Positions 21,882 through 57,605 of a DNA stretch of 64,000 bases are shown here, one piece after another; position 1 is the first letter of the stretch; every line of letters begins with the position of its first letter. Position numbers and translations under genes: made by a program. The notes beneath the pieces were generated by a model that saw only the letters and a program-made list of their open reading frames with translations, made no database searches and was not told the DNA's origin. Origin of the DNA: an uncultured Gammaproteobacteria bacterium (lineage in GTDB: Bacteria; Pseudomonadota; Gammaproteobacteria; Rariloculales; Rariloculaceae); contig CAMPKU010000002.1 of assembly GCA_946887385.1 (NCBI GenBank), forward strand, positions 1-64,000. Reading direction: 5' to 3'.

Positions 21882-23591
21882 TCAGCGCACCCCGTGCTCC
21901 ATGCGCACGTCGAGCAGCGCCTGGCGCCCGCCGGCCACGGCCGTCAATGCCTCGTCGATCGCGCGCGGCAGCTCTTCCGGCAAGTCCACGCGGCGCGCCC
22001 AGGCGTCGGACGCTTCGGCCACCTTCGTGAACTCCGGCGACGGCTGCAGCTCCACGAGCGGCATTTCGGCCGCGTGCGCGGCCTCGCCGTCGGGATACAC
22101 GACTCGCGTGGCGGATTCCACGGCCTGCCAGCGGCCGTTGTTGCACACGATCGTGAGGGTTGGCAGCTTCGCGGCGCGCGACACCAGGTGAAACGGCGTC
22201 GGATTGCCGAACATGTAGCTGCCGTCGCCCACGGTGCTCACCACGCAGCGATGAGGCGCCGCGAGCTTTGCGCCCAGCGACGCGCCAAGACCGAATCCCA
22301 AGCCGCCGCCGATGCTCACGCCGAGCAACGTGCCCGGCTCCTCGAGGCCAAAGTGATCGGGCGCCACGCCGAGCTCCGTGATGACCACGGCGCCTTTCGG
22401 CAGAGCGTGCCGCAGGCACGCGCCCAAATACGCGTAGCGAACGGGCTTTTCCGTGCGCGCCCGCTCGACGACGGCCGCGAGCTCCGCGGCCTTCTTCGCC
22501 TTGAACTCCGCCACGGCGGCGCGCCGGCGTTCGGCGGCGGCGCGGTTGACGGGCCGCGCTTTGAGCGCTTCGTCGAGCTGCTCTAAACCCGCGCGTGCGC
22601 TTCCCGTGATCGCGAGCTGCGCCGTGAATGCGCGCAGCGGATAGCGCTCGTACAACGGATCGGCGCCAAGGTGCACGACTTTGGCGCCGGCCCGCGGCGC
22701 GGCGTAGCGCGGATACCACGGCACCTCGCACTCCGTAACGAGCAGCGCGTCGGCCTGGCCGAGCAGCTCGGTGCCGGCATGGCCCAAATTGAACGGGTGG
22801 CTGGCCGGCAGATTCACGCAGCTCGCGTGCGGCTGCGCCACGGGTATCGCGTGCCGCTCGGCGAGCTCCGCGAGCACGGGCACGGCGGCGGGGTCCCGCC
22901 CGAGATTGGAGGTGAGGATCATCGGCCACTCGGCTGCGGCGAGCCATTCGGCGAGCGTGTCGATATGCCGCGCGCTGGGTTGCGGAACAGCGAGCTCCGT
23001 GGGCGGCAGACCGCTGGCAGCGCCGAGGTCGGGATTCGCGAGCACTTCGCGCGGCAGCGTGAGGTACACGGGCCCGCGCGGCTCCGACAACGCGATGTCG
23101 AGCGCGCGGCCGAGCACTTCGTCCACGGGCTGCCCGGCGCGCAGCTCGAAGTCCCACTTCGTGTACTCGCGCACGACGCCGGCTTGATCGAAGTTCTCTT
23201 GGCCCCAGTGGATCGGCGCGGAGCGCGACGCGATGTGGCCGCTTTGCGTGAGCGGGGTGCGGCCTGCCATCAGGAGCAGCGGCACGTTGTCGCGCGCGGC
23301 GTTCATCAGCGCGCAGATCGTGTTGCCGGTGCCCACGGTGACGTGCACCATCACCGCGGCCGGTTTGCCGGCCACCTGGTAATAGCCGTGCGCCATGGCC
23401 ATCGCGAGGTTCTCGTGGGGCACGGTAATGAACTGCGGGATCGATTCGTTGCGGCCGCGTAGCCGCACGAGCCCTTCGATCACCGGCGCGAAGTCGGTGC
23501 CGGCATTCGCCAGCACGTGATCGATACCGCGGCGCTTCAGCGCTCGCAGCAGTCCTTCTGCTACGGATGTGGTGGTGCTGGCTCCGTCCAT
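21882..23591 (-). CDS. Thiamine-diphosphate-dependent enzyme (acetolactate synthase / decarboxylase-like)
   Basis: A 569-residue enzyme with the three-domain layout of the ThDP decarboxylase family: the N-terminal pyrimidine-binding domain carries the activating Glu in TVPHENLAMAMAHG, a central Rossmann-like domain follows, and the C-terminal domain holds the ThDP/metal motif GDGSYMFGN ending in VCNN. It is closest in character to the group annotated as ThDP-requiring proteins near acetolactate synthase and benzoylformate decarboxylase; the substrate is unknown. No small regulatory subunit lies nearby, which argues against valine biosynthesis. It ends 3 bases from the convergent maiA. Confidence 0.85.
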   Translation of the reverse strand: MDGASTTTSVAEGLLRALKRRGIDHVLANAGTDFAPVIEGLVRLRGRNESIPQFITVPHENLAMAMAHGYYQVAGKPAAVMVHVTVGTGNTICALMNAARDNVPLLLMAGRTPLTQSGHIASRSAPIHWGQENFDQAGVVREYTKWDFELRAGQPVDEVLGRALDIALSEPRGPVYLTLPREVLANPDLGAASGLPPTELAVPQPSARHIDTLAEWLAAAEWPMILTSNLGRDPAAVPVLAELAERHAIPVAQPHASCVNLPASHPFNLGHAGTELLGQADALLVTECEVPWYPRYAAPRAGAKVVHLGADPLYERYPLRAFTAQLAITGSARAGLEQLDEALKARPVNRAAAERRRAAVAEFKAKKAAELAAVVERARTEKPVRYAYLGACLRHALPKGAVVITELGVAPDHFGLEEPGTLLGVSIGGGLGFGLGASLGAKLAAPHRCVVSTVGDGSYMFGNPTPFHLVSRAAKLPTLTIVCNNGRWQAVESATRVVYPDGEAAHAAEMPLVELQPSPEFTKVAEASDAWARRVDLPEELPRAIDEALTAVAGGRQALLDVRMEHGVR

Positions 23592-30142: not shown

Positions 30143-31179
30143 GCGACGCAAAGAACGAGCTCGAGACGCAGGAAACGCGCGCGTTGATCGAGAATTTTCA
30201 TACGGCCTTTGGGCAGATCCGCACTGAAGTCCGCAAGATCATCGTGGGCCAGGACGAGGTGGTCGAGCACTTGCTGATGACGCTGCTCGTCGGCGGCCAC
30301 TGTTTGATCACGGGTATGCCGGGCACGGCGAAAACTCTGTTGGTGCGCACGCTCGCGAACGCGCTCGGTCTCACGTTCAAGCGCATCCAGTTCACGCCGG
30401 ACCTCATGCCCACGGACGTCACGGGCACCGACATTCTCGAGGAGGACGTGAGCTCGGGCCGCCGCACCTGGACCTTCGTGCAGGGCCCGTTGTTCACGAA
30501 CGTGCTGCTCGCCGACGAAATCAACCGCACGCCGCCGAAGACGCAGTCCGCGCTGCTCGAGGCCATGCAAGAGTTTTCCGTCACGGTGCGCGGCCACCAC
30601 CACACGATTCAGCGGCCGTTCTTCGTGCTTGCCACGCAGAACCCCATTGAGCTCGAAGGCACTTATCCCTTGCCCGAGGCGCAACTCGACCGCTTCCTGT
30701 TCAACGTGCTGCTCGACTACCTGAGCGCCGAAGACGAGGTGGACGTCGTCACCCGCAACACCACGCGCATGGAGTTGCCCGAGGTCAACCCGTGCACCAC
30801 GCCGGAACAGATCCTGAAGTTCCAGTGGCTCGTGCGCCAAGTGCCCGTGTCGCAGACCGTCTATCGCTATGCCGTGGATCTCGTGCGCGCCACGCGCCCA
30901 CACGATCCGAACGCGCCCGAGATGGTCAAGAAGTACGTGCAGTACGGCGCCAGCGTCCGCGCCACGCAATTCATCACGCTGGCCGCCAAGGCGCGCGCGC
31001 TGATGCAGGGCCGCTATCACGTCACGCACGACGACGTTGCGTCGCTCGCGCTACCCGTCATGCGGCATCGCGTGTTGACGAACTACTTCGCCGAGTCCGA
31101 CGGCATCGACACCGACAAGGTGCTGACGGATCTCGTCAAGCAGCTCGGCGGCGAGAAAGGCCAAGCCCGCGTAGGCTGA
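30139..31179 (+). CDS. MoxR-type AAA+ ATPase
   Basis: A 346-residue cytoplasmic ATPase that acts as a chaperone for vWA-domain partners. Walker A is GMPGTAKT near residue 58, Walker B is VLLADEINRTPPKTQ, and the sensor segment FFVLATQNPIELEGTYPLPE is specific to the MoxR family. The TTG start overlaps the preceding stop, with TTGGAGG 8 bases before it as ribosome site. The DUF58 gene follows five bases later, the standard MoxR-DUF58 pairing. Confidence 0.95.
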   Translation: MSDAKNELETQETRALIENFHTAFGQIRTEVRKIIVGQDEVVEHLLMTLLVGGHCLITGMPGTAKTLLVRTLANALGLTFKRIQFTPDLMPTDVTGTDILEEDVSSGRRTWTFVQGPLFTNVLLADEINRTPPKTQSALLEAMQEFSVTVRGHHHTIQRPFFVLATQNPIELEGTYPLPEAQLDRFLFNVLLDYLSAEDEVDVVTRNTTRMELPEVNPCTTPEQILKFQWLVRQVPVSQTVYRYAVDLVRATRPHDPNAPEMVKKYVQYGASVRATQFITLAAKARALMQGRYHVTHDDVASLALPVMRHRVLTNYFAESDGIDTDKVLTDLVKQLGGEKGQARVG

Positions 31180-31184
31180 TCGAT

Positions 31185-32090
31185 ATGAGCGCAGGGACCG
31201 CGATACCGCAGCATCTGCTGAAGCCGGAGACGCTCGCGGGGCTCGCGAATCTCGATCTCGTGGCCCGCGCCGTGGTGAACGGCTTCTTGACGGGCATGCA
31301 TCGCTCGCCGTTCTTCGGCTTCAGTCAGGAGTTTGCCGAGTATCGCGCCTATGCCGAAGGCGACGATCCGCGCTTCGTGGACTGGAACGTCTTCGCGCGC
31401 ACCGATCGCACGTACATCAAGCGCTACATCGGCGAAACGAACACCCGGCTCGTGATTTTGCTCGACGCGAGCGCGTCGATGGGCTTCGGCAGCGGCAAGG
31501 TCACGAAGCTGCTGTACGGGAAGTTCCTCGCCGCGACGCTGGCGTACCTGGCCGCGCGCCAGCACGACGCCGTAGGGCTCATCGTGTTCGACGACAAGAT
31601 CCGCGAGCATCGGCGCGCGTCCACACGCGGCGGGCGCTTGAACGGCGTGCTGCACGCCATCGACCGCGCGGAGCCCGGCACGGGCACGGACTTGAAGGTT
31701 CCGTTCGAGCGGTTCCGCGAGATCGAGCACGGCCGGGGCCTGGTGGCCGTGATCTCCGACTTCTACTGCGACCCGGACGCGCTCTTGAAGAGCGTGCAGC
31801 CGCTCGCCTACCAGGGCCAGGACGTGATCTTGTTCCAGCTGCTCGACCCGCAAGAGCTGAAGCCCGTGCTGAAGGAGTCGGCGCTCATCGAAGACATGGA
31901 AAGCGGCCAGACGATGGAAGTCTCGCCGATCTACATGAGCTCGAAATACCGCGAGCGCATCGACGCGCACGTCGAAGCCATGCACAAATCGGCCATGCGC
32001 GCGGGCGCCGACCACCGCCTCGTCAACATCACCGAGCCCCTCGACAGCGTGTTGCGCTCATATCTCCTTTTCCGCCAGAGGCGCGGCTGA
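31185..32090 (+). CDS. DUF58 domain protein with vWA-like fold
   Basis: A 301-residue soluble protein typical of MoxR partners. The DUF58 motif is GDDPRFVDWNVFARTDRTYIKRY (quoted in parts: GDDPRFVDWN and YIKRYIGE), followed by a vWA-like domain with DASASM as the MIDAS-type start. The frame is open upstream inside moxR, but the ATG at 31185 gives the usual N-terminus. After its stop there are 216 non-coding bases holding a large palindrome before the next gene of the same operon, the only sizeable break in it. Confidence 0.93.
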   Translation: MSAGTAIPQHLLKPETLAGLANLDLVARAVVNGFLTGMHRSPFFGFSQEFAEYRAYAEGDDPRFVDWNVFARTDRTYIKRYIGETNTRLVILLDASASMGFGSGKVTKLLYGKFLAATLAYLAARQHDAVGLIVFDDKIREHRRASTRGGRLNGVLHAIDRAEPGTGTDLKVPFERFREIEHGRGLVAVISDFYCDPDALLKSVQPLAYQGQDVILFQLLDPQELKPVLKESALIEDMESGQTMEVSPIYMSSKYRERIDAHVEAMHKSAMRAGADHRLVNITEPLDSVLRSYLLFRQRRG

Positions 32091-32120
32091 AATGCGCGCA
32101 GAGAGTGCGATGAAGTATCC

Positions 32121-32290
32121 CGGCAGCAACGCGTGCGTACGGCGTTGCCCGGGGCGCTCGCGCACATGGGCCGCGATATGCTCCTGCAATCGCGGCACGC
32201 CGCCATCCATGGCGGCGATGTGCGCGCGCGAGCCTACAGGGACGTATTCACGGCGTCCCCGGGCAATGCCGTACGCGCGCGTTGCTGCCG
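32121..32290. repeat. Compound palindromic element A inside the MoxR-vWA operon
   Basis: Outer arms 32121-32154 and 32257-32290 are 34-base inverted repeats with only 2 mismatches. Inside are a second layer (32156-32167 against 32218-32233, with a 4-base insertion) and two complete hairpins: GCCGCGAT...ATCGCGGC (32170-32196, loop TCCT after three more pairs) and CGCCGCCAT-CC-ATGGCGGCG (32198-32217). The segment AGCCTAC-AG-GGACGTATTCACGGCG (32231-32255) follows. The same words recur in element B2 at 38709-38734. No coding signal is seen. In RNA this would be a very strong structure between the DUF58 and BatA-like genes. Confidence 0.85.
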
Positions 32291-32306
32291 CCGATGAGGC
32301 CCAAAG

Positions 32307-34298
32307 ATGAGTCTTCTTGCCCCCGCATTTCTGCTGGGCCTGCTGGCCATTGGGTTGCCGTGGTGGTTGCATCGGTTGTCGTCGGACAATCCGAATAAGC
32401 AGCGGTTTAGCTCGCTGATGTTCTTGGAGCCTGGCGAGCCGCGGCGCGTGCTGGCCAAGAAGGTGCAGTACCTGCTGCTGCTGGCGCTGCGGATCGGTGT
32501 GCTGGCGTTCTTGGCTTTGGCGTTTGCGGAGCCCGCGATCTGGCGTACGCCGGCGGTTGCCGGCGAAGACAGCGACGCGCGGTTCCATTTGATCGTGCTC
32601 GACGGGTCCGCGTCGATGAGCTACGGCGATCGATGGGCCGACGCGCGCGCCGCTGCCAACGACGTGCTCGACGACATGGCGCCCGAAGATCGCGGGCAGA
32701 TCGTGCTCGCCGGGCGGTTGTTCGAGGTGCTCGGGCCGGTGACGAGCGACGTTGCGGCGCTGCGTCAAACGTTGAATACCGCGGAGCCGGGCGTGTTTCG
32801 GCTCGAGTATGGGCAGCTCATGCGCTCGATCGACGGCCTGCTGCGTACCGCGGAGCTGCCCGTCGTGCTCGACCTGGTCACCGACGTGCAGTCGAGCGGT
32901 CTGCCCACGCGCTTCGGTGAGCTCGCGCCGCGGCGGCCCGCGGAGATCGTGATTCACGACGTGACGGACGGGGCGGCCGAGAACTGGACCGTGGAGAGCT
33001 TCGGCGCCTCGGCGCTCACCGGCGAGCTCACGGCGAGCGTGCGCAGCTTCGCGCCGCAGGCCGCGACGAGAACCGTCACGCTGATGCAAAACGGCCGTGC
33101 CGTCGCCGAGCAAACCGTGGAGGTGGCGGCCGGCGGCCGCGCACAAGCCGAATTCGCGCCACTCGAGCTCACGAGCGGCTCCAATCGCGTCGAGGTGGTG
33201 CTCGATCCCGGCGACGAGCTCGCCGGCGACGATCGCCGCTATCTCGCCATCAAGCGCCCGGAGCCGCGTAAGGTGCTGCTCGTGGCCCCGAGCACCGACA
33301 GCCTCGGCGCGCTGTATGCCAGCGCGGCGCTCGAGACCTTGACCACGCTCGCGTTGACGGCCGACGTGCGCACGACGCCGCTCGGCGACCCGCCGCTCGC
33401 CGACTACAGCTTCGTGGTGGTCACCGACTTGGGCTCCCTCGACGGCGCTCAAGCGGCCGCGCTACAGGATTATGTCGAAGACGGCGGCCGGGCTCTGCTC
33501 GCCGCGGGTGCGCGCTCGGCGGGGCTCACGACGCTGCCGGTCACGGGCCATACGTTGCGCACCACGCCGCAGATGAGCGCTCGGGCGAGCACCGCCATCG
33601 GCGAGGTGGACGCAACGCATCCGGCGCTGCGCGGCGTCGATGAGCTGCGGGCCGCGAACTTTGGGCGAGCCGTCAACGTCGAACCGACTGAAGCCGACCG
33701 GGTGCCGATGTGGCTCGCCGACGGGACCCCCCTGCTGCTCGAGCGCACCTTGGGCGAGGGCCGCGTGCTCGTGTTCACATCCTCGCTCGACCGCGAGTGG
33801 AATGATCTGCCTGTACAGCCCGCGTTCGTGCCGCTGATGGCCGGCATCGCGAACCACTTGCTCGGCGGTGCCGGGTTCACGAGCGAAGCGGACTTGGGCA
33901 GCACGCTGACGTTGCGCGCCTTGGGTCTCTCGGGCGGGCAGATTTTCGACCCGCGGGGCGAGGCGGCGCTGGGTCTTGGGGCGGGTAGCGACGCCGTGTT
34001 GCTCGACCGGGTAGGCTTCTACGAGGTGGTCGGCGGCGGAACGACCGAGGTCGTGGCCGTGAATTTCGATCCGCGCGAGTCGGATCTGGCGCCCGTAGAC
34101 GCCGACACGCTCGAGCGCTGGCGCGGGCTCGGGGTGCGCCCGGGCGAGAGCGCGGCGCCGGTGGCCGCCGCGCCTAGCGGCGAGACGGTGCCGAGCTCGC
34201 TGGGGCCGTGGCTGGTGATGTTGCTGCTGATGTTCGTGATCGTGGAATCCCTGGTAGGAAACTGGCATCTTAGGATTCGAAGAGGAGTGGCCGCATGA
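32307..34298 (+). CDS. BatA-like membrane protein with vWA domain
   Basis: A 663-residue inner-membrane protein. The N-terminus is the BatA-type double-helix anchor ([20 protein letters not shown] and, after [33 protein letters not shown]), then a vWA domain with [11 protein letters not shown] long beta-rich region and an amidotransferase-like segment ([17 protein letters not shown]) follow, and one C-terminal helix ([20 protein letters not shown]). GAGG lies 7 bases before the ATG. Its stop overlaps the DUF4175 start (ATGA). It probably works with the MoxR ATPase. Confidence 0.87.
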
Positions 34299-37200
34299 CC
34301 GCCCAATCGCAGCTCGAAGCCTACCTCGGCGAATTTCGCCGGCGCTTGAAAGCGCTCATCGTCGCCCGCGGCGCGGCCTTGCTTGCCGTGGCGGCCCTGG
34401 CGGTCACGCTGCTGGCGGTGTACTTCGGCATACGGCGGGCCTTCGATCCACAAATCGTGATCAGCGCGCGGATCGTGCTGCTGCTCCTGCTCGGCGCGAT
34501 CGCCGTGGGTCTCGTGGTGCTGCCGCTGAAGGCATTGCGGCGCAATCGGGGCATCAAGGACATCGAACGGCGTGCGCCGGATTTCAACGGCCGGCTCGAG
34601 ACCTATGACGGTATCGTCCACGGGCCGCCCGAGCGTGCAACGCCGTTCCTCGGTCTCCTGGCAGAGGACGCGTTGGCCTTCGCGCGCCGCGTCCCCGTCG
34701 CCCTCAAAATTCCATCGCTCCAGGTGCGGCTGCCGGCCGCGCTGGCCGCCTTGGCCGTCGTGGCGCTCGTCGGCACGGCCGTTTTCGGCCCCGCGAATTG
34801 GCGCTACGGCGTGCGGCATCTGTGGGCCGGCTGGCTCGTGGAAGACACGCTGCCGCCGCAGTATCTGGCCGTGGAGCCCGGCGACGGCACGGTCCGCCGC
34901 GGCGGGGACTTGCGCGTAACGGCCAGCGCCGAAGGGTTCGAACCCCCTCGCATGGAGGTGTTCGCGCAGTTCCAGGCCGGGGGCGAGTGGGAAAGCGCGC
35001 AGATGAGCCGCACGGCAGACGGCGGCTTCAACTTCACGTTCTTCGCGCTGCGCGAGCCGCTGCGCTACTACGTGGCTGCCGCCGGATTGCGCAGTCCGGA
35101 GTTCGCCGTCGACGTGGTCGATCTGCCGCGCATCACGAATCTGAAGCTCACCTACAACTACCCGAACTGGACGAAGCTCGAGCCGCTCGTGGTCGAGCCG
35201 GGTGACGACATTCGCGCCGTCGAAGGCACGCAGGTCACCGTCGAGCTTGCGACGGACCAGCCGCTCGAGGCGTCCGAGCTCGTCGTGGACGGGCAGCGCA
35301 TCGCGATGCAGAACGCCAACGGCGTCAACATGGCCACGCTCGATGTCGCGAAGGACGGCGAATACCACGTCGCCACGCTGTTCAACGGCGACGCCGTGAA
35401 GCTCACGGACGATTACCTGATCGAGGTCATCCCCGACGACAAGCCGGTCGTGAAAGTTTTGAAGCCGGGGCGCGACTGGCGCGCCAGCAACATCGAGGAA
35501 GTCACGGTTCGAGTCGAGGCCAACGACGACTTCGGCCTGGATCGCGTCGAAGTGCGCTATTCCGTCAACGGCGGCGAATGGCAAACCGCGCCGATCGACG
35601 TAGACGGCAACAGCGTCGTCGGCCAGCAGGTGCTCTTCCTCGAGGACCTTACCGAGGAAGTTCGCGCGCCCGTGCAGCAGTCCATCAACGCGATCCGCGA
35701 CCGTACGCGCGGCGCGTTCGATCGCGGCATAGACGACATCCGCGCACGTTTGCCGCGTATCGACGAGCCTGCCGAGGACGTCGAGGAGTCGTCGGCGGAG
35801 CCCGCGGCCGTCGAGACGGTGGCGCCGCAAGCGCGGCCGCTCGAGCCCGGCGACGTGATCTCGTATTACGCCGTGGCCGAGGATCGTGGCCGCGAGGTGC
35901 AGACGGATTTGTTCTTCATCGAGGTGCAGCCCTTCAACCGTAACTTCACCCAAGCCTCGGGTGGCGGCGGTGGCGGCGGCGGCGGCGGCGGGGACCAAGA
36001 GCAGAACGAGATTTCGCGGCGGCAGAAGGAAATCCTCGTCGCCACGTGGAATCTCATCAAGGAGCGTAGCGAGGAGACTTCGAGCTTCCTCGACGAGCAG
36101 CAGCTCCACGACAACGCACAGATGCTGGCCGATCTGCAGCGCACGCTCGCCGAGCAGACGCGCACGTTGGCGAGCCGCACGCGCGCGCGCGGCCTGACGG
36201 GCGCCGACCCGCGCATTCAGCGGTTCATCGAGAGCATCGAGCAGGCAGCCACCGCGATGGACCCGGCCGCCGAACGGCTCGCCGACATCGAGCTCGACCA
36301 GGCCGTACCGTCCGAGCAGGACGCGTTGACGCTCTTGCTGCGCGCGGAATCGATCTTCACGGACATTCAGGTCGCCTTCCAGCAGGGCGGCGGCGGCGGC
36401 GGCGGGGGCATGGCGGGCCGCGACCTGAGCGAGCTGTTCGAGCTCGAGATGGATCTCGAGAAGAATCAGTACGAAACGGAATCGCCGGTGGCCTTCGATT
36501 CGGAGTCGTCGCAGCAAGAGCAAGTCGACGACGCCATCCGCAAGCTCCAGGAGCTCGCGCGCCGCCAAGAGCAACTCGCGGACCAGGCGAATCGCCGTAA
36601 CGGCTTGACGGAGCAGGAGCGCTGGCAGCAGGAATCCCTGCGCCGCGAAACCGAGGAGCTCAAACGGCAGCTCGAGGAGATGCAGCAGCGTCTTGCGCAG
36701 GAGCAGCAACAACAGCAACAGCAGCAGGCCCAGCAAGGTCAGCAAGGTCAGCAGGGTCAGCAAGGCCAGCAGGGTCAGCAAGGCCAGCAGGGTCAGCCGG
36801 GCCAACCGGGGCAGCCGGGCGACCCGAGTCAGCAGAGCCAGGCCAACGCAGGCGGTCAGGGCAGCGAGACGCAACAGGCCATCGACCAGCTGAACCAGGC
36901 GCTGCAAGCGATGAATCAGGCGAGCGGCCAAGGCCAGCAAGGGCAGCAGATGAGCCCCGAGGAGGCCCGGCGCGCGATCGAGCAGGCGCGGCGGCAACTC
37001 CAGGAAGCGCTCCAGCAGCTCACGGCCGAGCGCCAGGCTGCTGTGGGCGCCGCGTTCGAGGACCTTGCCGAGCGCTCGCAGCAGCTTTACGACGAGCAAC
37101 GCCAGGCTGCCAACGATCTGCAGGAAGCGCTGCGCGGTGCACCCGCCGGCGATCCGAGCAACAGGCGCCGCGGCAGTCTGCCCGCGGACCAAGCCGAGGA

Positions 37201-38191
37201 GCTGGCCGAGCGCAAGTACGATCTTCAGCAGGAGCTCCAAGCGCTCGAGGAAGATATCCAACGCATTGCGCAGCAGTTCCGCAACCAAACGCCGCAGGCG
37301 AGCGAGGCGCTGAATCAAGCCCTTGCCGACTTGCAGAGCGTGCAAGCGGGGGCACGGCTCGGGTTCGGCGGCGACTACATCCTGCGCGGCCAGGGCGCGC
37401 AAGTGGCGGCCACCGACGCGGTCACGACGTCCGCCTTGCGCGATCTGCAGCGCAACACGGAAGAGGCGCAGGCCTTGGCTAACGCGGAAGCGGTTGCCGG
37501 CGAGCAAATCGAGGCCGATCCGAACGCGGAGTTGCGTGCGGAGCTGCAGAACCTGCGCCGACAGCTCAGCGAGCTGCAGCAGGGGCAAGCCCAAAACAGC
37601 CAGGGGCAACCGGGGCAACAGCAAGGGCAGCCAGGTCAAGGGCAGCCGGGGCAGCAGCCAGGTCAAGGGCAGCCGGGCCAACAAGGGCAGCCGGGTCAGC
37701 CGGGCCAGGGCAACGCGCAGGCGAATGGCGGCGGCGGTCAGATCGGGGATCGCAACGGCGGATTCGGCCCTGGCGGCCCGGGCAACTTCTACGACTGGCG
37801 TCGCGGCGGCGTATGGGATCCGCGTAATCGCGGCGTCTGGGACCAACCCGGTGCCATCGACGATGCGCGGCAGCAGCTCAACGACGCATCGCGTGAGCTC
37901 CTAACGCTCGGCAACGAGCTGCGCGCCGAGGGTCTCACCGATGAGGAGCTGCGCGCCGTGCGCGAGCTCGGCGAGGCGCTGCGTGGCAGCATCACGGGCA
38001 ACCCCGAGCTCATCGAGCAGGAGTTCCGGCAGCTCGTGAATCTCACGGAGCAGCTCGAGCTCAGGCTCGCGGCGAATAGCGAGACCGCCGAGCGGGCGGC
38101 CGTTCGCGCCCAAGCGCCGACGCAAGTCGCGCCCGGGTTCGAAGAGGCCGTCGCCGAGTACTATCGCCGCCTTTCGCGCTCCGACCGCTAG
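34295..38191 (+). CDS. Giant DUF4175 membrane protein with Gln/Gly-rich repeats
   Basis: A 1298-residue protein. Three hydrophobic helices (about residues 25-50, 60-80 and 148-168) anchor it; DUF4175 text includes [21 protein letters not shown] large periplasmic part has Ig-like beta segments ([18 protein letters not shown]), then long coiled coils. Residues 815-844 form ten perfect Gly-X-Y triplets (GQQ x6, GQP x3, GDP), and a second Gln/Pro/Gly-rich stretch lies near residues 1100-1155. A poly-Gly run sits near residue 552. It closes the MoxR-vWA operon. DUF4175 proteins usually end such clusters; the collagen-like insert is less usual. Confidence 0.85.
36737..36826 (+). repeat. Collagen-like Gly-X-Y coding repeat
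   Basis: Thirty codons encode ten uninterrupted Gly-X-Y triplets (mostly GGT/GGC-CAG-CAA/CAG, turning to GGC-CAG-CCG). The 9-base periodicity with alternating wobble bases is plain in the DNA. It is preceded by a run of Gln codons (36706-36736). It lies between predicted coiled coils of the DUF4175 protein, where it could trimerise or simply act as a spacer. Confidence 0.8.
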
Positions 38192-38235
38192 GAATAAGAC
38201 GTAGTTGTCGCGCGCCGCCGCTCGCCTGCGGGCGC

Positions 38236-38459
38236 GGCGGCTACGTCGTGCCTTGCGGCGGCCAGCGACTTCGCCGGCTTCGCCGGTTCCCGCGCCGCCG
38301 GGCGCGACACGTGGGGCGCGCAGGGCGGACATCCTGTCCGCGCTGCGCGTGCGCGGCATCCTGCCGCGCACCCCGCGCTTCGCGCGGGGCCTGATCCACG
38401 TGTCGGCCGCAGCGGCGCGGCTCGTCGCTACGGCCGCCGCAAGGCACGACGTAGCCGCC
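38236..38459. repeat. Compound palindromic element B1
   Basis: Arms 38236-38263 and 38432-38459 are perfect 28-base inverted repeats. Pairing continues inward with AGCGAC/GTCGCT and, further in, with blocks around 38290-38313 and 38394-38420 that end in GACACGTGG/CCACGTGTC. The centre holds three separate hairpins: 38318-38348 (12 pairs, one mismatch, loop ATCCT), 38349-38371 (9 perfect pairs, loop ATCCT) and 38371-38389 (7 pairs, loop CTTCG). The whole 224 bases could extrude as one branched cruciform. It begins 45 bases after the DUF4175 stop and could terminate or protect that long transcript. Confidence 0.85.
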
Positions 38460-38481
38460 ACACCCGCAGGCCGTCCCGATC

Positions 38482-38506
38482 CCTCTTTTCCCCCCCAAAA
38501 AAGAGG
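38482..38506. terminator. Possible bidirectional terminator hairpin
   Basis: CCTCTTTT (38482-38489) pairs with AAAAGAGG (38499-38506) around a C-run loop. The arms carry the T and A runs, so the shape is not a classic GC-stem terminator. It lies between elements B1 and B2 in the gap 38192-38796, where I see no gene. It might end transcription from either side, but the evidence is only the shape. Confidence 0.3.
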
Positions 38507-38646
38507 AAACGCGCGCTGCCGCGCGCTGCCCGTTCCACTCCCCAAAAAGGACGCGCCGCGTGCCGGCGGTACCACTCCTCCAAAGGCGAATGACCGCCAC
38601 TCGCGGCATCCTCCGCGCGCAGAAGACGGCTACCACTCCACTCTGG

Positions 38647-38770
38647 GGAATGGCGGCCGGTGCATGAGGGGCCTTTCGGCAGCGTCGGCGACAGGACGTC
38701 GCCGACGCAGCCTACTTAGGACGTATTCACGGCGGTGCCGAAAGGCCCCTCATGCGCCGGTCGCCATTCC
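38647..38770. repeat. Compound palindromic element B2
   Basis: Arms 38647-38681 and 38736-38770 are 35-base inverted repeats with 2 mismatches. Inside are one perfect 11-pair hairpin (38682-38692 with 38698-38708, loop AGGAC, which reads GTCCT on the other strand) and the segment AGCCTAC-TTA-GGACGTATTCACGGCG (38709-38734). That segment matches element A except for the 2-3 base spacer. The arms show no resemblance to those of element A. The right arm ends 26 bases before the start of the dienelactone hydrolase gene. Confidence 0.85.
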
Positions 38771-38796
38771 GCGATGCCGCCAGTAGCATCGTCTTC

Positions 38797-39459
38797 ATGA
38801 GCCGCATGATCACGCTAAAGGCCAGGGACGGGCACGAGCTAGACGCGTACGTTGCCGAGCCGCCTCAAACGATGCGAGGCGGCTTGGTTGTGGTGCAAGA
38901 GATCTTCGGCGTCACGAATCACATCATGCGCGTTGCCGATCAGTACGCCGCGCAAGGGTACAAAGTCGTCGCGCCGGCCATGTTCGACCGCGTCGAGCGC
39001 AACGTGACGCTCGACTATTCGCAGATCGAGCAAGGGCGCGAGTACATGCGCCGGCTCGAATGGCCGAACACGCTCGCCGATCTCGACGCGGCCCTGAGCG
39101 AAGTCCGCGGAGCCGGCAGCGCCTGCGTGGTGGGCTACTGCTGGGGCGGCACCGTGGCGCACGTCGCGGCGAGCGAGCTCACGCTCGACGCGGCGGTCTC
39201 GTACTACGGCGGCGGTGTTGCGAAGATGCTCGACAAGCAGCCGCGCTGTCCGATCCTCTATCACTTCGGCGACAAGGACGCGTCGATTCCGCTGGCAGAC
39301 GTCGAGAAGATCGAACAAGCCAACCCGCAAAGCTCGCTGTTCGTGTACCCGGGCGCAGGTCATGGTTTCAACTGCGACGAGCGCGCCAGCTACAGCGAAA
39401 AAGACGCCAAGCTAGCGTTCGAGCGCTCGCTGCAGTTTCTGCGCAAGCACACGAGCTGA
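38797..39459 (+). CDS. Dienelactone hydrolase family protein
   Basis: A 220-residue cytoplasmic alpha/beta hydrolase. The dienelactone hydrolase triad is visible: Cys in VVGYCWGGTVAH, Asp in YHFGDKDASIPL, and His in VYPGAGHGFNCDER. The text VVVQEIFGVTNHIMRVADQYA near residue 30 is also family-specific. The enzyme may open cyclic dienelactones from aromatic breakdown, though many members have other ester substrates. The start is the ATG of MSRMITLKARDG. A more upstream ATG in frame would fall inside the palindrome arm and is rejected. Confidence 0.9.
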   Translation: MSRMITLKARDGHELDAYVAEPPQTMRGGLVVVQEIFGVTNHIMRVADQYAAQGYKVVAPAMFDRVERNVTLDYSQIEQGREYMRRLEWPNTLADLDAALSEVRGAGSACVVGYCWGGTVAHVAASELTLDAAVSYYGGGVAKMLDKQPRCPILYHFGDKDASIPLADVEKIEQANPQSSLFVYPGAGHGFNCDERASYSEKDAKLAFERSLQFLRKHTS

Positions 39460-57554: not shown

Positions 57555-57605
57555 GGCGGGGACGGATTTGTCGAAGGCGGGGGACGGATTCATAAATCCG
57601 TCCCC
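57555..57605. repeat. REP-like repeat with a perfect 11-pair hairpin
   Basis: Directly after the Gfo/Idh stop, the unit GGCGGGGACGGATT occurs twice (57555-57568 and, with one extra G, 57576-57590). The second copy pairs with AATCCGTCCCC (57595-57605) around a CATA loop. The sequence is like dispersed GGGGACGGATT repeats associated with REP-type tyrosine transposases in gammaproteobacteria; no transposase is nearby. It may also act as a transcript end before the next gene. Confidence 0.6.

Follow-up and report, generated by a model that had tools for sequence, protein, structure and literature searches.

What does a dispersed palindrome conserve when its long arms vary freely in sequence and its core does not? 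The question is raised by two compound palindromes, element A (32121-32290) and element B2 (38647-38770), which lie on the + strand of the window, the 64,000-nucleotide (nt) stretch of contig CAMPKU010000002.1 from an uncultured gammaproteobacterium that was analysed here. By eye, the arms of A and B2 are unrelated in sequence, and both elements enclose the same 16-base core, GGACGTATTCACGGCG. This core marks a family of repeats dispersed among gammaproteobacteria. The + strand folds as a three-way junction composed of an outer stem (P1), an inner hairpin (P2) and a core hairpin (P3). We give an even chance to the reading of this family as a dispersed structured-RNA repeat that is predicted to be clamped by a dimer of CsrA/RsmA, and that is spread by mobile palindromic units or by units resembling miniature inverted-repeat transposable elements (MITEs). 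The parts of the two window elements are as follows.

32121 to 32154, + strand: element A, 5' arm of P1 (34 bp, 2 G.T wobbles)
32155 to 32231, + strand: element A, long inner hairpin P2 of 77 nt, with its tip replaced by an insert (loci L064, L066 and L086 have a similar long inner form)
32170 to 32216, - strand: insert in the inner hairpin of A, two hairpins with minus-strand loops AGGA and ATGGAT (TCCT and ATCCAT on the + strand)
32232 to 32254, + strand: element A, core hairpin P3, GCC-TAC-(AGGGAC)-GTA-TTCAC-GGC, with a loop that fits ANGGAN
32257 to 32290, + strand: element A, 3' arm of P1
38647 to 38681, + strand: element B2, 5' arm of P1 (35 bp, 2 G.T wobbles)
38682 to 38708, + strand: element B2, inner hairpin P2, with an 11-bp stem and the 5-nt loop AGGAC (GGA at 38694-38696)
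38710 to 38733, + strand: element B2, core hairpin P3, with the loop TTAGGAC, one base above the family norm
38736 to 38770, + strand: element B2, 3' arm of P1

An earlier note on this DNA had described the two palindromes with arms of 34 and 35 bases, each with 2 mismatches. These coordinates and arms were reproduced, and the four mismatches all prove to be G.T wobbles when the + strand is read. The shared core that it reported is likewise present in both copies: GGACGTATTCACGGCG has two exact copies in the window, at 32240-32255 and 38719-38734 on the + strand, and each follows AGCCTAC at a distance of 2 bases (A) or 3 bases (B2). One further window match with at most 3 mismatches, at 22620, is at chance level (shuffle mean 1.18). 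A covariance model trained on 73 elements, none of them from the window, detects both B2 (59.1 bits, E-value 2.8e-14) and A (39.7 bits, E-value 8.6e-9, in a fit that omits the inner part of A), although these E-values are rough. The same model gives a weak match of its P2 part to the minus strand of the insert (32197-32218, 10.6 bits, E-value 1.5).

By eye, an insert of the kind seen in the P2 tip of A (32170-32216), made of two hairpins with TCC-type loops, recurs at loci L064, L066, L086, L252 and L265. It looks as if one element were nested inside another with opposite polarity.

A dispersed family

When one genome per species was scanned for GCCTACN{0,5}GGACGTATTCACGGCG, at least 119 stretches matched; of 80 listed stretch titles, 77 name gammaproteobacteria and 3 Proteobacteria. 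Together with the window, these stretches hold 126 elements, 124 of which have a 2-base spacer; it is 3 bases long in the other 2, including B2. Exact copies of the core were counted in 20 genomes, and range from 300 (M. buryatense) through 65, 45, 41 and 28 to between 1 and 10 in the remaining 15. One copy was found in 4 of these genomes, two in 2, and 3 to 300 in 14. The dispersed class whose existence the earlier note had conjectured is therefore real, and it is not confined to one or two copies per genome, the situation in which that note held that no family would exist. Less exact copies raise the totals per genome further, and the reversed pattern has no match in the 20 genomes. In Stenotrophomonas, exact cores are present in 38 of 61 genomes.

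A form of the core with a free stem matched 26 of 369 genomes in a sample of the class chosen around a known carrier, which is included in the count. Two of the 26 (G203 and G249) have a single match each, with unpaired stems, which may be due to chance. No phage match to GCCTACN{0,4}GGAYGTATTCACGGC was found in IMG/VR, and a plasmid search with element A as the only query gave a best E-value of 0.2.

No Rfam family reached its gathering cut-off in the window or in 10 further loci. Scores for microRNA families were far below cut-off, as with MIR5387 at B2 (45.7 bits against a cut-off of 69), and Ysr224 reached at most 31 bits against 70, on both strands in many of 16 loci. We take such scores to be general matches to long hairpins. 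No earlier description matching the family was found in listings of the open-access literature, in which PMC3733652 was covered in part, as text without the figures that hold the terminal inverted repeat (TIR) sequences of S. maltophilia. A CsrA-related small RNA of Alcanivorax was considered and set aside; it is not the repeat family, as far as the accessible part of PMC9788540 describes it.

A covarying three-way junction

The fold is supported by an alignment of 73 elements, drawn from 77 non-redundant elements filtered for complementary arms (4 were omitted for their inner length) and with the core forms preset. In this alignment, 90.6% of cells are paired, versus at most 42.1% when the partners are slid, and 28 of the 32 base pairs show changes on both sides. 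RNAalifold predicts 31 of the 32 pairs from the same alignment. Because the aligned rows were filtered beforehand for complementary arms, separate unfiltered controls matter. Elements selected only by their core, and having enough flank, number 118, and 93 of these have complementary arms (arm score at least 12), compared with none after shuffling of the right flank and 1 of 116 after swapping of partners. The outer-arm structure is not a product of chance. These counts bear out two points of the earlier note: that core matches elsewhere would be flanked by self-complementary arms, and that structure and core are selected whereas the arms are free in sequence.

The P3 stem was also examined with its letters left free and with no filter on arms or core form. 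Pairing was found in 257 of the 259 distinct contexts from all loci. The form TAC/GTA accounts for 223 of the 259, much of which is owed to the choice of seed, but the other forms pair in 34 of 36 contexts. Five compensated forms of the stem occur in the 369-genome sample, namely TAC/GTA, TCC/GGA, CCC/GGG, ACC/GGT and GAC/GTC. When pairing was not required in this sample, 5 of 127 listed rows (at most 10 rows per genome) were unpaired and 3 more were G.T wobbles; the reversed pattern had no match there. A separate scan of the seed loci and window, which did demand P3 pairing, gave 29 matches outside the seed pattern: CCC/GGG in 14, TAC/GTA in 7, TCC/GGA in 6, and CAC/GTG and TAT/ATA in one each. 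The bulge is mostly TTCAC, and among these 29 matches, which were not chosen for their bulge, it is TTCAC in 14 and TTTAC in 9.

Because the P3 stem covaries, the fixed 16-mer can be understood as the 3' half of a hairpin that consists of GCC, a 3-bp stem, the loop, the stem, the bulge and GGC. The core that the earlier note described as identical is thus mostly hairpin stem and loop rather than a fixed single strand, and its 3-bp stem varies by compensation. Most likely, the stems serve mainly as scaffold, whose sequence drifts by compensatory change.

The fold of one strand

Imperfect pairs in the outer arms reveal which strand is folded. After removal of redundancy, the 93 elements with an arm score of at least 12 leave 78, in which the non-Watson-Crick pairs comprise 96 G.T versus 20 A.C (p about 4e-13) and 43 G.A versus 7 T.C. 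The ratio of G.T to A.C is 124:21 in the seed loci (a set that overlaps with the 96:20 set), 25:4 in Stenotrophomonas, 11:3 in M. buryatense (G002), 13:4 in G014 and 9:4 in G020, the last three sets being small and borderline or non-significant alone. Such an asymmetry implies that selection sees a single strand, the one that carries the GGA loops, which is the + strand in the window. The asymmetry fits RNA and single-stranded DNA alike.

Loops and a candidate protein partner

Beyond the fold, it is chiefly the two hairpin tips that are conserved. When the six letters of the P3 loop were left free, 13 genomes gave 267 matches, and among the 150 listed, from 4 genomes, 143 conform to ANGGAN, with all four bases occurring at positions 2 and 6. 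The exceptions are GAGGAC, AGGAAC, AGGGCC, CTGGAT, ATAGAC, TTGAAG and ATGAAC. The P2 loop, which was not used for selection, has A, G, G and A at the equivalent positions in 70, 73, 66 and 70 of the 73 aligned elements, respectively, and is in some cases one base shorter or longer. The distance from the GGA of P2 to that of P3 is 19 to 21 nt in all 72 measurable rows of the 73, and 20 nt in 57. The earlier note had pointed to TCCT-type loops; such loops are present, and are recast here as an ANGGAN-type motif read on the other strand.

Pairs of ANGGAN loops are a known protein-binding signature. The accessible part of PMC7652899 describes the CsrA/RsmE site as an ANGGAN hexaloop and gives the consensus from systematic evolution of ligands by exponential enrichment (SELEX) as RUACARGGAUGU, with AC/GU pairing around a six-base loop in most ligands. 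It also states that a CsrA dimer bridges sites that are 10 to 63 nt apart, best when more than 18. The commonest P3, UACANGGAYGUA, is close to this consensus, and two ANGGAN hexaloops per element at a bridging distance are found at the level of the family, though only in part in the window copies. The simplest partner would be a dimeric protein able to read ANGGAN loops at a distance of about 20 nt; CsrA/RsmA is the known protein of this kind, and we therefore propose it. On this view, the dispersed gammaproteobacterial repeat to which A and B2 belong works in the form of one folded strand, most probably of RNA, and a single CsrA/RsmA dimer would grip its ANGGAN-type P2 and P3 tips, which are usually 20 nt apart. 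The clamp might act in cis where a transcript contains it, or serve as a sponge in trans. As for its spread, the element would be carried along by mobile palindromic or MITE-like units.

We infer RNA rather than single-stranded DNA, CsrA binding, a sponge or cis role and MITE-type spread from sequence patterns, and several observations weigh against them. A csrA gene was found in all 20 element-bearing genomes tested versus 3 of 14 control genomes, but to our knowledge very few gammaproteobacteria lack csrA, which makes its presence weak evidence. CsrA sites require neither the GCC/GGC pairs nor the TT-rich bulge that P3 keeps, which means assuming a tertiary contact or another binder. The stability of P1 and P2 also greatly exceeds that of most SELEX hairpins, in which at most 4 pairs are contiguous (PMC7652899). 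The window copies are imperfect: A has one good loop on the + strand, and the loops of B2 are 5 nt and 7 nt long. Codirectional neighbouring genes show no sense bias (20 elements sense versus 32 antisense), and the G.T excess is not detectably different between sense (16:3) and antisense (25:8) positions, as compared at 16 and 29 loci, respectively, of unmixed class outside the window. These two results count against a role in host mRNAs and leave room for recognition of single-stranded DNA. Combined with the extra conserved letters of P3, the missing sense bias keeps a transposase-type partner as a strong rival.

A bolder version of the CsrA/RsmA reading, which we advance tentatively, is that the family is a transposable or conversion-driven clamp, that is, a selfish gammaproteobacterial repeat whose docking loops are its most conserved part and whose copy number sets the pool of free CsrA, because every copy that is transcribed would titrate or recruit the protein. 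If this were true, the load of scattered repeats would tune a global regulator of carbon use, motility and biofilm formation by means of a sponge encoded across the genome in up to hundreds of copies. Even if the partner is not CsrA, the compensated core stem and the folding of one strand make the partner protein directly searchable. For annotation, the gain is a strongly covarying structured family with no Rfam family above cut-off in the stretches searched, and the family offers a clear way into the question of why, in some dispersed palindromes, it is the loops and not the stems that are kept. The covarying core hairpin, the shared ANGGAN-type loops, the one-strand folding and the match to a known binding signature go beyond the earlier note. 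That note had offered a recognised site, a non-autonomous mobile element or an RNA processing unit; a site recognised in a folded single strand fits best, and a non-autonomous mobile element fits the dispersal.

Genome context and alternative explanations

Element A lies in the gap between + strand open reading frames (ORFs) at 30792-32090 and 32307-34298. In B2, the 3' arm of P1 runs into a + strand ORF (38752-39459) at its mechanically assigned start. Across the family, a crude longest-ORF caller found a gene on both sides of 79 of the 126 elements and left 47 undecided; in addition to the codirectional cases given above, 19 elements have convergent and 8 divergent neighbours. Loci L011, L047 and L102 share a place upstream of leuS, and L047 and L102 are alike on both sides.

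The alternative that survives best is a non-autonomous mobile element comparable to repetitive extragenic palindromic (REP) sequences and REPINs, in which the element's own transposase (HUH or other) reads folded single-stranded DNA through the ANGGAN tips, with no link to CsrA. We judge this unlikely on balance, and the evidence is mixed. Such an element is expected to fold strand-specifically without a bias in gene orientation, as is seen, and some genomes do have a high copy number. In close pairs of elements, the 5' ends usually face each other and the core ends point outward (67 of 76 cases, or 60 of 69 once repeats of the same place are removed), which is the HH topology of GTAG REPs. 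However, 42 of the non-redundant inverted pairs are from Stenotrophomonas, and the arrangement is found in 0 of 6 pairs in G002, G014 and G020. By sight, the complement of P3 and P2 shows GTAG followed by a hairpin, but this GTAG sits on the strand opposite to the folded one and is lost where the P3 stem changes (the TCC, CCC, ACC and GAC forms).

A Y1_Tnp match is present in 17 of the 20 element-bearing genomes, so 3 carry the element without one. Mobilisation by RAYT/Y1 proteins was rejected: only 1 of 50 Y1-bearing stretches, which represent most of the Y1 matches in the 20 genomes, contains the element, and that one is from the genome with 65 copies; another count gave 0 of 30. Near Y1 genes, a BLAST comparison of 166 elements with 30 Y1 loci found only arm-like matches of 16 to 28 nt (L144, L148 and L149; the best, L148, at E-value 0.002), and the covariance model's only match is a hairpin without the core (L127, 15.1 bits). 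No transposase was recognised among the 22 largest clusters of recurring neighbour proteins in the 119 loci and the window.

Nor does M. buryatense show a visible replication-strand bias. Such a bias was considered and rejected, given 155 forward versus 147 reverse matches. About 100 listed forward places have a density of roughly 31 per Mb up to 0.9 Mb and of 35 per Mb from there to 2.97 Mb, with dnaA at 3.40 Mb. This even density and the 155/147 split indicate that the impression of a one-way distribution was an artefact of the listed places.

The earlier note had suggested a comparison of empty and filled sites. At one place in Methylotuvimicrobium, M. buryatense has two copies and its relative G001 has neither, with a short unrelated stretch in their stead. 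This would suit a REP/REPIN-like element, although the junction is not clean, no target duplication is shown, and insertion and loss are both compatible with it. In Methylotuvimicrobium, the core forms part of repeat units about 170 and 243 bp long. One kind of unit has the common ends TATACC...GGTATA by eye, and its copies look MITE-like; a TA target like that of IS630 may be involved. The family differs from ordinary MITEs in that, by eye, units of different genera share no sequence outside the core region.

At an orthologous intergenic site in Stenotrophomonas (L220-L234), the flanking sequence is alignable, whereas both the inside and the arms of the element belong to different subtypes from locus to locus. 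No empty site was seen in the 12 comparable loci of the 14 (the other two were represented by a 126-base piece only). This switching looks like conversion between dispersed copies, and so is what would be expected if the elements were ordinary stable hairpins, acting as transcription barriers or protecting mRNA ends, that were spread by gene conversion and chance, with loops that are inherited rather than selected. A slight excess of neighbouring gene ends over gene starts (112 versus 87) is also in keeping with this. We nevertheless consider it improbable, for inheritance alone does not fix loop positions 1, 3, 4 and 5 and leave 2 and 6 free while the pairs of P1 and P2 change. Nor are the elements ordinary + strand terminators, since just 3 of 122 have a run of five T residues within 15 to 60 nt after the core. 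A role as double-stranded or cruciform DNA, with the element as a binding site or recombination point, is very improbable: the long near-perfect inverted repeats and the exchange of the inside in situ would agree with this, but the excess of G.T over A.C is unexpected if both strands matter equally.

Comparison with known systems

The GTAG REP, REPIN and TIR families of RAYT/TIRYT genes, as the accessible text of Di Nocera 2013 (PMC3733652) presents them, are likewise dispersed palindromes, mostly gammaproteobacterial in the case of GTAG repeats. As in our family, GTAG REPs form inverted pairs with the tag ends outward, and GTAG adjoins the hairpin on the complement of our elements. Whereas that text describes a GTAG REP as a hairpin of 20 to 40 bp, our family is a three-way junction of roughly 85 to 170 nt. 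Our elements also differ in that GTAG is not kept as P3 covaries, the opposite strand folds, RAYT genes are not flanked, and a pair of ANGGAN-type loops is present. The self-complementary paired TIRs of S. maltophilia (ORF 1152) may overlap with our family.

TwoAYGGAY RNAs (RF01731) and the reverse complement of the Bacillaceae-1 motif (RF01690) are proposed, not yet validated, CsrA-binding RNAs according to the accessible parts of PMC4333381 and PMC2864571. Both resemble our family in having two hairpins whose GGA loops match the CsrA motif, and the outer stem of TwoAYGGAY is poorly conserved in these descriptions. The proposal that paired GGA motifs bind CsrA, as set out in the part of PMC4333381 that is accessible, is a printed precedent for the clamp proposed here. 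RF01731 was not found in our elements, either at the gathering cut-off (window and 10 loci) or up to an E-value of 10 (window positions 31900-39000 and 16 loci). The P3 core and the dispersal in up to 300 copies set our family apart from both motifs.

The sponge RNAs CsrB/CsrC and RsmX/Y/Z also present GGA in hairpin loops, as pairs of sites for the CsrA dimer. These RNAs are single genes with their own promoter and terminator and with many sites. In contrast, our family has two sites per unit and many dispersed units, with the rarity of T-runs after the core noted above.

Other palindromes in and near the window

The window contains a further compound palindrome, B1.

38236 to 38459, - strand: B1, a separate compound palindrome with arms at 38236-38263 and 38432-38459 and no P3 core

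B1 folds on the minus strand and encloses two hairpins (38325-38341 and 38349-38371) with the minus-strand tips CAGGATG, and 24 nt separate its GGA motifs. It thus has the same design as A and B2 minus the P3 core. As B1 has the loop pair but lacks the core, the feature common to these palindromes of the window may be the loops and not the core. A Bacillaceae-1 match at 38309-38367 scores 21.5 bits, below the cut-off of 35 (E-value 1.8).

Simpler hairpins were also seen. At 57580-57605, a solitary 11-bp hairpin, GGGGACGGATT...AATCCGTCCCC, is located between oxidoreductase-like and metallo-hydrolase-like ORFs. By eye, no transposase ORF is next to it. It resembles GGGG-type terminal repeats. 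In a Sedimenticola genome (G020; L294, L305 and L297), several elements are flanked, by eye, by simple TCGGGCTTCAGCCCGA REP-like hairpins. Finally, a cobalamin riboswitch that scores above the Rfam cut-off lies near an element in an Ectothiorhodospira genome (L272:1-153, - strand).

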